64,000 nt of DNA from Caldanaerobacter subterraneus. Lineage in GTDB: Bacteria > Bacillota > Thermoanaerobacteria > Thermoanaerobacterales > Thermoanaerobacteraceae. The translations under genes and the position numbers were made by a program. Below are positions 40,585 to 43,548 of this stretch, piece after piece. Where the stretch lies: assembly GCF_004345675.1 (NCBI RefSeq), contig NZ_SLWU01000003.1:62001-126000 (forward strand). The letters are read 5' to 3'. Within the stretch, counting starts at the first letter, position 1; each line of letters opens with the position of its first letter. The notes below the pieces were generated by a model that was not told where the DNA came from, searched no databases, and was given only the letters and a program-made list of their open reading frames with translations.

Positions 40585-41466
40585 TTACGGAATATCATCT
40601 AATGTCTTAAATTCATATCCTTCCTCTTTGATGCTTTTAATTATCCTGTCAAGTGCCTGTGCATTATCTTTTGAAACAGCGTGCAGAAGTATAACAGCTC
40701 CAGGGTGAAGCCTTTTCATAACAGTACTATAGCTTTCTTCAGGTCCTCCAGGAAGAGGCTGCCAGTCAGCCATAGCCAAACTCCAGAAAACCGTTCTGTA
40801 TCCCAAAGATTTAGTAATATAGAGCGTTCTTTCACTGTATTCTCCTCTTGGAGGTCTGAAGTATTTCATCTTTTGCCCCGTTAAATCTTCAAACATCTTT
40901 TCCAATCCAAGTATCTCCTCTTTCACTTTTTCATCAGGCAAGGTAGGAAGACTGGGATGGTTGACTGTGTGATTTCCAACAATATGTCCTTCCTCTACCA
41001 TTCTCTTCACAAGGTCCGCCTGCTGTTTAACATAAGGTCCTGTAACAAAAAAAGCTGCCTTTACTCCGTTTTCTTTGAGTACATCCAATATCCGAGGAGT
41101 ATATCCTGCTTCATATCCTTCATCAAAAGTCAAGTACACCACTTTTTTCGTCGTATCTCCAACAAAAATCGCATTGTACTTTTTGACAAGTTCCATGGCA
41201 TAAGGCGTAATCTCCGGCGTTTGGTGATTGGGCAAAACTCTTAAGCCCCATCCATAAGGAGTGTTGTCAAGATTTTCTGTCTTTTGAACCACATGATTTA
41301 CAACGTTTGAAATCTCTTCTTTAGGCGAGTTAAACGGCTCATGTAGAGCTTCCTCTTGAATTTTTGCCTTATCATTTTCATTGCTGTTTTTTTTGATTAT
41401 ACCACAGGACACAAGTGAAAAACAGAGGGCAACTCCTATTGCCAAAGAGATAATTTTCTTTGCCAT
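40585..41466 (-). CDS. PdaA-like polysaccharide deacetylase, lipoprotein
   Basis: 293 residues. A lipobox LVSC near residue 20 indicates a lipid anchor. The NodB deacetylase domain (about 95-285) has LTFDEGYEAGYT, HTVNHPS metal ligands, and RPPRGEYS. The FDEGYE variant and the YGWGLR preface match PdaA, which makes muramic delta-lactam in spore cortex. Sporulation or cell-wall modification is inferred. Confidence 0.9.
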   Translation of the reverse strand: MAKKIISLAIGVALCFSLVSCGIIKKNSNENDKAKIQEEALHEPFNSPKEEISNVVNHVVQKTENLDNTPYGWGLRVLPNHQTPEITPYAMELVKKYNAIFVGDTTKKVVYLTFDEGYEAGYTPRILDVLKENGVKAAFFVTGPYVKQQADLVKRMVEEGHIVGNHTVNHPSLPTLPDEKVKEEILGLEKMFEDLTGQKMKYFRPPRGEYSERTLYITKSLGYRTVFWSLAMADWQPLPGGPEESYSTVMKRLHPGAVILLHAVSKDNAQALDRIIKSIKEEGYEFKTLDDIP

Positions 41467-41537: not shown

Positions 41538-42098
41538 TTATCTGGAATTGCCCTCGTATATCTCGCACACTGTCCCTCGACAAGGGCAGAAGCGGCAAAG
41601 AGAAAAAGAAGGAGTCACAGAAGGCATGTACACCCCTTTTTCCATCTTCCTCATTTGTTCTAAAATTTTTAAAAGTTCTTTTCTTAAATATTTCCTGTTA
41701 TAAACTTCAAACATGGCATTTCTATAAACTATCCGTCCTCTTTTTACTCTCTTTTGATACTCCTCTTCTATTATCACAAAATATGCTACAAGCTGCATCA
41801 CATCTTTAAAATAGGGCGAATCTTCTGCATCACTGCTTTTTAGCTCTATTGGGACAAGCTCGTCTCCAACCTGATAGATGTAATCAGGTTTTCCGGTCAA
41901 ACCATATTTCTCTGACTTTAGCAGCTTCCCGTAAACTACCCCTTTTCCTTTGACTTGCTGCGGCTTATCTACGTATATCAATTTGCCTCCCCTAAAGCCT
42001 ATACTCCTTCTCATCCTTCTGTAAAAAGGCCTTTGTTCAATTATCGAATAAATCAAAAGATAAAGCACAATAAGGAGAAAAACTATATTTAGAATCAT
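41538..42098 (-). CDS. Cas4-like nuclease, catalytic half, N-terminally membrane-anchored
   Basis: 186 residues. A single N-terminal helix (2-19) and a basic patch (RRMRR) are followed by a RecB/PD-(D/E)XK core: GLTGKPDYI supplies the metal Asp, VPIELKSS the E-x-K, and QLVAYF the Q-x3-Y motif. Three C-terminal cysteines (CRFCPCRGTVC) match the Cas4 iron-sulfur site. The first Cas4 cysteine and upstream His are absent here but present in the preceding gene, which overlaps by 4 bp. There is no CRISPR array or other cas gene. Confidence 0.82.
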   Translation of the reverse strand: MILNIVFLLIVLYLLIYSIIEQRPFYRRMRRSIGFRGGKLIYVDKPQQVKGKGVVYGKLLKSEKYGLTGKPDYIYQVGDELVPIELKSSDAEDSPYFKDVMQLVAYFVIIEEEYQKRVKRGRIVYRNAMFEVYNRKYLRKELLKILEQMRKMEKGVYMPSVTPSFSLCRFCPCRGTVCEIYEGNSR

Positions 42099-42382
42099 CT
42101 CACATACCTCATCACAAATAAAATCAGTAAAATCAAAAATACAATTCCAAAAGCGATAGCATACCTTTTGTATCTAAGTTTTACGATGTCTTTATAGTAC
42201 TTTTCATGATAGTCTATTCCCCTCTTAAAATTTACAAACTGCTCTTCCCTCTCTGAAGGCTCTCTCAAATTGTTGATATATTCGAGTCCGTACTTTTTTA
42301 TGTAATACCACTGATAAGGACAGTAAAGAAACTGATTTACTTCAGTAGCCGATATATACCCCTTTTTCTCCTCTTTTTTCAT
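42095..42382 (-). CDS. Cas4-like N-terminal half, C-terminally membrane-anchored
   Basis: 95 residues. The N-terminus, YISATEVNQFLYCPYQWYY, is the start of the Cas4/RecB fold with the first cluster cysteine; FKRGIDYHEKYY has the conserved Gly and His. A C-terminal helix (about 73-91) ends the chain. Together with the next gene it supplies every Cas4 motif, as if a Cas4 had been cut in two by a membrane hairpin. Translation is coupled by an ATGA overlap. Confidence 0.78.
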   Translation of the reverse strand: MKKEEKKGYISATEVNQFLYCPYQWYYIKKYGLEYINNLREPSEREEQFVNFKRGIDYHEKYYKDIVKLRYKRYAIAFGIVFLILLILFVMRYVR

Positions 42383-42420
42383 ATCGCAACCCTTCTTAAA
42401 ACTTTATAAAAAAAGGGGGA

Positions 42421-43548
42421 TTAACCCCTCGGATCAGCAACTACAAGCACATCTATAAATTTGGTCCCCTTCATTATCCTTCTCACAATTGAGCCTCTTA
42501 TTATTTCGTCTATCCTTCTTCTTACAGACTGTCCTACCACAATCTGAGTAATGGCATTCTCCTCAGCAAATTTTATTATAGCCTTTGCCGGGTCATTTGA
42601 TTTCACCATGTAAAACTTGGCTTCTAATTTATTGCACAGCATAGTAATCTCATCTAACTTTTTCAAATTTTTATGGTCTTTGAGCTCATCGTCGTTGTAG
42701 ACATGAAGCACAAACAGGTCAGCCTTAAGCATTTTAGCTAGCCTATATCCACGCCTTATCAAATATTCCGCATTAAACCTCAAATTTACACACACCAGTA
42801 TCTTTTCCTGCGCTCCCTTTAATCCCACGACTTTCTTCTTATTCCTGTACTCTAAAAGCCTATCGTCAACCTCATTGGCCACTTCCCTCAATGTCAGCTC
42901 TCTTAAAGCCGCTAAATTCCCTACTCTGAAGAAATTATTAAGAGCTGTCTCAATCTTATCAGGACTATAAATTTTGCCGTTTTTCAACCTCTCAATTAAG
43001 GTCTCTGGAGATACGTCCACCACTTCAATCTCATCAGCCAGTTCAAGAATTTTATCGGGGATGGTCTCTCTAACTTTCACATTCGTCATCCTGTTTACAT
43101 AGTCATTCAAGCTTTCAAAATGCTGTATGTTTACAGCCGTCATAACGCTTATGCCGTTGTCTATGAGTTCTAACACGTCCTGATACCTTTTCTCATTTTT
43201 TGAACCAGGAGCATTTGTGTGAGCCAATTCATCTACAACGACTACCTGAGGTTTTCTCTTAATAATTGCCTCCAAATCCATCTCCTTAAGAATTACACCT
43301 TTGTAATTTATTTCCTTCAAAGGAATAATCTCAAGGTCCCCTATCTGCTCCTCTGTGTCTTTTCTCCCATAGGTTTCTACAAAACCAATAACTACGTCTA
43401 TGCCTCTTTTCTTCATCTCATTGGCATCCTGTAACATGTGGTAGGTCTTTCCGACACCAGGAGCAGCACCAAGGTAAATCTTGAGCCTTCCTTTATTTGC
43501 CCTTTCAATTTCTCTCATGAAGTAGTCTGGGGACCTCTTCACTGCCAT
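42421..43548 (-). CDS. Short KdpD: sensor N-terminal and USP domains without kinase
   Basis: 375 residues. KdpD N-terminal domain with Walker A GAAPGVGKT and Walker B VVVVDELAHTN, then a USP-like domain (about 245-370, ILVCVNLRF...). The membrane, GAF and histidine-kinase parts are missing, and kdpE is not in the window. Such short KdpDs occur in some Firmicutes, where regulation may be through c-di-AMP or direct binding. The S-x-S motif reported for c-di-AMP binding KdpD reads NLRF here. It is last in the kdp run. Confidence 0.87.
   Translation of the reverse strand: MAVKRSPDYFMREIERANKGRLKIYLGAAPGVGKTYHMLQDANEMKKRGIDVVIGFVETYGRKDTEEQIGDLEIIPLKEINYKGVILKEMDLEAIIKRKPQVVVVDELAHTNAPGSKNEKRYQDVLELIDNGISVMTAVNIQHFESLNDYVNRMTNVKVRETIPDKILELADEIEVVDVSPETLIERLKNGKIYSPDKIETALNNFFRVGNLAALRELTLREVANEVDDRLLEYRNKKKVVGLKGAQEKILVCVNLRFNAEYLIRRGYRLAKMLKADLFVLHVYNDDELKDHKNLKKLDEITMLCNKLEAKFYMVKSNDPAKAIIKFAEENAITQIVVGQSVRRRIDEIIRGSIVRRIMKGTKFIDVLVVADPRG

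Follow-up and report, generated by a model that had tools for sequence, protein, structure and literature searches.

Cas4 is generally regarded as a CRISPR adaptation nuclease that is soluble and made of a single chain. In a stretch of 64,000 nucleotides from Caldanaerobacter subterraneus, hereinafter the window, two small genes on the minus strand, denoted A and B, jointly hold the characteristic residues of one such protein, and each of the two products carries a membrane helix. The locus thus raises the question whether A and B derive from a broken cas4 gene or encode two subunits of a single membrane-anchored enzyme and, if so, on what DNA that enzyme would act.

A Cas4-like protein divided at the membrane

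The features of the pair are as follows, with the defining residues of Cas4 taken from PMC12538437.

42095..42382, minus strand: gene A, 95 amino acids; Cas4 N-terminal half (YCPYQWYY with Cys21, and His59) followed by a C-terminal membrane helix
41538..42098, minus strand: gene B, 186 amino acids; N-terminal membrane helix, PD-(D/E)XK core and three C-terminal cysteines
42095..42098, minus strand: ATGA, overlap of the A stop and the B start (translational coupling)
42107..42110, minus strand: GAGG, Shine-Dalgarno-like site for B, inside the 3' end of A
42320..42322, minus strand: Cys21 of A, predicted first [4Fe-4S] ligand, invariant
42206..42208, minus strand: His59 of A, predicted metal ligand, invariant and aligned with the Cas4 histidine
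42113..42163, minus strand: membrane helix of A, residues about 74-90, preceded by a K/R-rich segment (6 in 15 residues)
42036..42095, minus strand: membrane helix of B, residues about 2-21, followed by a K/R-rich segment (7 in 20 residues)
41883..41885, minus strand: Asp72 of B (GKPD), predicted catalytic, invariant
41838..41846, minus strand: E85-L-K87 of B, predicted catalytic E-x-K, invariant
41781..41795, minus strand: Q102-x3-Y106 motif of B, invariant
41565..41597, minus strand: Cys168, Cys171 and Cys178 of B, predicted remaining Fe-S ligands, invariant

The coordinates, the lengths of 95 and 186 amino acids, the 4-bp overlap and all the residues named in the initial annotation of this DNA were each checked and are correct. 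Cys21 and His59 are the only cysteine and the only histidine of A, and the cysteines of B are at positions 168, 171, 173 and 178; the Cas4 set of one N-terminal and three C-terminal cysteines, predicted to hold an iron-sulfur cluster, is complete only when A and B are combined. Both proteins contain one strongly hydrophobic helix each and, given the basic residues before the helix of A and after that of B, the soluble parts of both are predicted to be cytoplasmic, an orientation that the positive-inside rule makes very likely.

Taken alone, B exceeds the Cas4 cut-offs of Pfam (PF01930, 25.9 against 22.7 bits) and NCBIfam (TIGR00372, 137 against 65), and A gives a weak match that covers only the initial third of Cas4 (cas4 model 2-66, E=0.0015) and was seen again in other genomes. 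Family profiles of A and B were also compared, using hhalign, with a profile of eight single-chain Cas4 sequences, encoded mostly in loci with other cas genes. The profile of A aligned over columns 2-58, cysteine on cysteine and histidine on histidine, with a score of 43.3 (37.8 after removal of the membrane columns), against 18.3 for the best of 100 column-shuffles and 9.0 for the reversed profile; that of B aligned over columns 42-191 with a score of 153.4, against at most 18.2 for the shuffles, which are a better yardstick here than the hhalign E-values, since these refer to single comparisons. By these alignments, A and B map to parts of CRISPR Cas4 that complement each other.

The AlphaFold2 model of B (pLDDT 81) had as its best Foldseek match a type I-C Cas4 (8d3l, E=5e-6), followed by Cas4/Cas1 complexes, human MGME1 and Argonaute-associated Cas4 proteins, with Dna2 also among the matches; the fold search with A alone, for which the model is weak (pLDDT 69, pTM 0.36), yielded no Cas4 match. 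The nuclease domains of MGME1, Dna2 and AddB/AdnAB belong to the same fold class as B but are single chains or fused to helicases, and we know of no membrane anchors of the A-B kind in these proteins. With the Cas4 family (COG1468/PF01930, TIGR00372), the pair shares the PD-(D/E)XK core, the Q-x3-Y motif, the four cysteines and the histidine but, unlike Cas4, it consists of two polypeptides with a membrane helix at the split in each and has no cas neighbours. Being encoded by two genes, with a membrane helix in each product, A-B is a divergent relative of Cas4 and not a standard Cas4.

Conservation and chromosomal neighbourhood

Among the 37 genomes of the class that were examined, A is found in the same 21 genomes as B, always directly upstream of it, and the carriers span three genera of one family (f1) and two genera of another (f2), so that the split pair is shared by two bacterial families within one order. 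Both genes are absent from families f3 (2 genomes) and f4 (13 genomes); in f1, a match is lacking only in G019, whose contig stops at pdaA. Two genes with one membrane helix apiece were found in all intact carriers examined, and the 4-bp ATGA overlap is present in most of the relatives that were read. Within the genus, the NG86 dN/dS values for both A and B are mostly about 0.04-0.16, being higher for two pairs of very close relatives, and the two genes are under purifying selection. A search for the cases that the initial annotation had named as contrary to its reading, namely, pairs lacking the D/E-x-K residues or an A gene with no B, found none among intact copies.

The ordered co-occurrence in 21 of 21 carriers, the invariance of the catalytic and cysteine residues and the mostly low dN/dS exclude chance and pseudogene formation as explanations. 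A pseudogene or a sequencing frameshift in a single cas4 gene is ruled out by the conservation of the arrangement in all 21 carriers and by the Shine-Dalgarno-like site and start codon that B has of its own. This separate start also disfavours a programmed frameshift joining A to B, and no slippery site was seen by eye. In two draft assemblies, G004 (L011) and G017 (L020), there is a frame break inside A with B intact, which may reflect either an assembly error or real decay.

A single-chain form with a membrane hairpin was not found in the 398 genomes sampled across the phylum; the other matches inspected in the phylum are single-chain Cas4 proteins without membrane helices, nearly all encoded beside cas genes. 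The phrase "one Cas4 interrupted by a hairpin", used in the initial annotation, therefore stands as a structural description of the pair but not as an observed ancestor. In family f4, open frames of 216 amino acids match the full cas4 model (G025, G028, G029, G031 and G033), and the split pair is absent there.

Taken together, A and B represent a real, conserved and apparently undescribed architecture inside the Cas4 family. It is highly probable, judging by their sequences, that they are two subunits of one composite, membrane-anchored iron-sulfur nuclease of the Cas4/AddB type, and the composite, membrane-bound nature of the predicted enzyme is strongly supported by the same data.

Along the minus strand, the genes are arranged in the order sugar-nucleotide transferase, kdpABC, KdpD-like non-kinase sensor, A, B, pdaA, flippase-like protein and glycerol genes. 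The absence of a CRISPR array or cas gene nearby, which the initial annotation had pointed out, is borne out by these neighbours, and pdaA directly follows B in all 11 neighbourhoods compared, from two families. Two features of this region are relevant here.

40585..41466, minus strand: pdaA, spore delta-lactam-biosynthetic de-N-acetylase, the next gene after B
42408..42429, minus strand: terminator-like hairpin and T run, after the KdpD-like gene and just before A

The assignment of pdaA is backed by a score of 353.6 bits, over the spore_pdaA cut-off of 298. The genes 5' of A are variable, and kdp is missing in some genomes. In family f3, the locus reads dipeptidase - glyA - pdaA, with A-B missing, so a single insertion or loss beside pdaA accounts for the adjacency, and PdaA is a conserved neighbour that is probably not part of the nuclease. 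With the terminator-like hairpin located just 5' of A, the pair probably starts its own transcript; a TATAAT box is present 5' of A in several relatives, and neither the region upstream of A nor that between B and pdaA yielded a sigma-G-like promoter. The KdpD-like gene (42421-43548 of the window) encodes a non-kinase potassium sensor (NF038185, 622.7 bits), and, within the genus, kdp genes separate A from the sugar-nucleotide gene in the window, G006 and G008 but not in G001. In family f2, both L085 (5920-7151) and L086 (1981-3212) have pdaA followed by genes for a small cory-CC-star-like protein and a Get3/ArsA ATPase.

Plasmid copies and the split clade

A protein search of plasmids gave matches on three Bacillus subtilis plasmids and on planctomycete plasmids. 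In one B. subtilis record and in the Paludisphaera and Singulisphaera plasmids, the small gene directly 5' of the plasmid "Cas4" encodes an A protein, with ISA(S/A)E, YC, G and H at the positions seen in A and then a C-terminal membrane helix, and the downstream "Cas4" genes encode a membrane helix at the N-terminus. Thus, the same split membrane pair is present on mobile plasmids from two phyla, with intact pairs coming from three plasmid lineages only, and its presence on plasmids of Bacillus subtilis and Planctomycetota is new here. The initial annotation had described a Cas4-type nuclease that is divided at a transmembrane hairpin into two coupled, membrane-anchored proteins and is unconnected with CRISPR; this arrangement proves to be not only conserved but also borne by plasmids from another class and another phylum.

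The plasmid copies had been annotated as a "Dna2/Cas4 domain-containing protein" in B. subtilis (for example, WP_144625286.1) and as a "PD-(D/E)XK nuclease family protein" in Isosphaeraceae (for example, WP_076351885.1), with the upstream gene, that is A, annotated as hypothetical. They share the split and the membrane helices with the chromosomal pair but have as neighbours either a DinG-like helicase and hfq or DNA methyltransferases, and the two genes of the B. subtilis pair are separated by a 4-bp gap instead of overlapping. The B. subtilis plasmids encode Tcp-type conjugation proteins and a replication-relaxation protein; the Paludisphaera plasmid encodes a MobF relaxase and a type IV coupling protein, and the Singulisphaera plasmid is typed as conjugative (MobF/MPF-T). 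On the B. subtilis plasmid, the pair comes after the type IV DinG-like helicase, and the helicase and the split membrane Cas4 may form one functional unit; on NRS6116_2 (L099 1333-4654), the gene run also includes a 77-aa protein and hfq. A decayed fourth copy is found on pPL62-2 (L103 3837-4336), with B in two frames, no A seen and an adjacent IS701-family transposase. No viral copies of the pair were found in phage records or in scans of viral contigs.

When the B protein of the B. subtilis plasmid was used as a query in the Caldanaerobacter genome, it matched gene B only and not the CRISPR Cas4. In a maximum-likelihood tree built with the membrane parts removed, the eight split forms grouped together with a support of 93/91, and they did so again (94/86) when the long-branch CRISPR Cas4 of this genome was left out, a support that is good but, with a limited comparison set of Cas4, not decisive. 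As the split forms group even without their membrane parts, the split arrangement looks ancient.

What the proposed membrane nuclease might do

On balance, the best overall explanation is probably that A-B is a composite membrane nuclease, which may act on DNA that enters or leaves the cell. A provides the first cysteine and the histidine, and B the aspartate, E-x-K, Q-x3-Y and the last three cysteines; under the mechanism that we propose, the two helices would pair as a hairpin in the membrane, the composite active site and the [4Fe-4S] cluster would assemble on its inner face, and neither protein would be expected to be active by itself. More tentatively, the pair might resect or degrade free-ended DNA at the membrane, probably single strands or flaps, and the substrate would most likely be DNA on its way into or out of the cell during conjugation or transformation. 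The conjugation genes of the carrier plasmids, combined with the membrane anchoring, make DNA at the membrane the likeliest substrate, through a link that is circumstantial, and we give somewhat less than an even chance to the substrate being DNA at the membrane during transfer. Natural competence is found in many species of Thermoanaerobacter and Thermoanaerobacterium (PMC4857275), and in Synechococcus, RSF1010 was transferred or maintained more readily once a Cas4-like nuclease had been lost (PMC10653904). Every one of the 37 genomes of the class encodes ComEC, whether it carries the pair or not, so a competence link through ComEC is uninformative; in Thermoanaerobacterales, the pair adjoins pdaA, not transfer genes. 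The role in DNA uptake or defence put forward in the initial annotation is accordingly still conjectural, and the pdaA neighbour does not decide it.

Conceivably, although we consider this unlikely, the pair is a general DNA-repair nuclease involved in end resection or flap removal that simply happens to be anchored in the membrane, perhaps close to the machinery of replication or segregation, and has no special connection to DNA transfer. This would accord with the vertical inheritance of the chromosomal pair among metabolic genes, the mostly low dN/dS, the TATAAT boxes, the fold shared with Dna2, MGME1 and Cas4, and the role in defence or repair proposed for solo-Cas4 (PMC5704561), but it leaves the anchoring of both halves unexplained, and the plasmid carriers suggest transfer. 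The constant proximity of pdaA and the fact that Thermoanaerobacter are spore formers (PMC3533761) bring to mind a role in sporulation together with PdaA, perhaps on DNA at the forespore membrane; we find this improbable, considering the lack of a sigma-G-like promoter at either site, the single insertion or loss that suffices to explain the adjacency, and the planctomycete plasmid copies, which are without any sporulation link.

That the pair is a Cas4 serving CRISPR adaptation in trans is very improbable, despite its homology to Cas4, the presence of CRISPR in the genome and the assistance that a Pyrococcus solo-Cas4 lends to adaptation (a finding cited in PMC12538437): a different, complete cas4 gene (C15:30861-31337) is present in the genome, some 2 kb away from an array with at least 103 repeats, the split clade stands apart from CRISPR-associated Cas4 in the tree, and membrane anchoring is unexpected in a partner of Cas1-Cas2. 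It is hardly credible, too, that B alone is the enzyme, or is inactive, with A serving only as a regulator or anchor, because, even if B passes the Cas4 cut-offs unaided, the first Fe-S cysteine and the metal-binding histidine are missing from B and invariant in A, which accompanies B in every carrier of the class.

Located outside CRISPR loci, the A-B pair belongs with the solo-Cas4 proteins, and the statement of the initial annotation that known Cas4 proteins are soluble exonucleases of spacer acquisition was too narrow, since solo-Cas4 as well as plasmid and virus Cas4 are described in PMC5704561. In that article, Hudaiberdiev et al. (2017) also recorded a solo-Cas4 in Thermoanaerobacterales, which very probably corresponds to gene B; when the main text was searched by term, neither a split nor membrane anchoring turned up. 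In the open-access literature searched, we found no description of the small partner, a membrane-split Cas4 or its membrane anchoring. Gene B by itself exceeds the cut-off of the cas4 equivalog model (TIGR00372) in each of the 21 carrier genomes of the class, and so one half of a membrane enzyme unconnected with CRISPR can be annotated as a CRISPR Cas4, with its partner left "hypothetical".

We offer, as a speculation that is rather unlikely to hold in full, that A-B exemplifies a two-subunit, inner-membrane Cas4 family, present in at least two phyla and on conjugation-related plasmids, that gates single-stranded DNA crossing the membrane and is switchable by pairing. If this is true, nuclease activity would depend on the pairing of the anchored halves in the membrane, making this a switchable nuclease. 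The split membrane form, found in Thermoanaerobacterales, Bacillus and Planctomycetota, gives the study of solo-Cas4 function a concrete and testable site, the inner membrane, with the naturally competent species of Thermoanaerobacter and Thermoanaerobacterium as tractable hosts.
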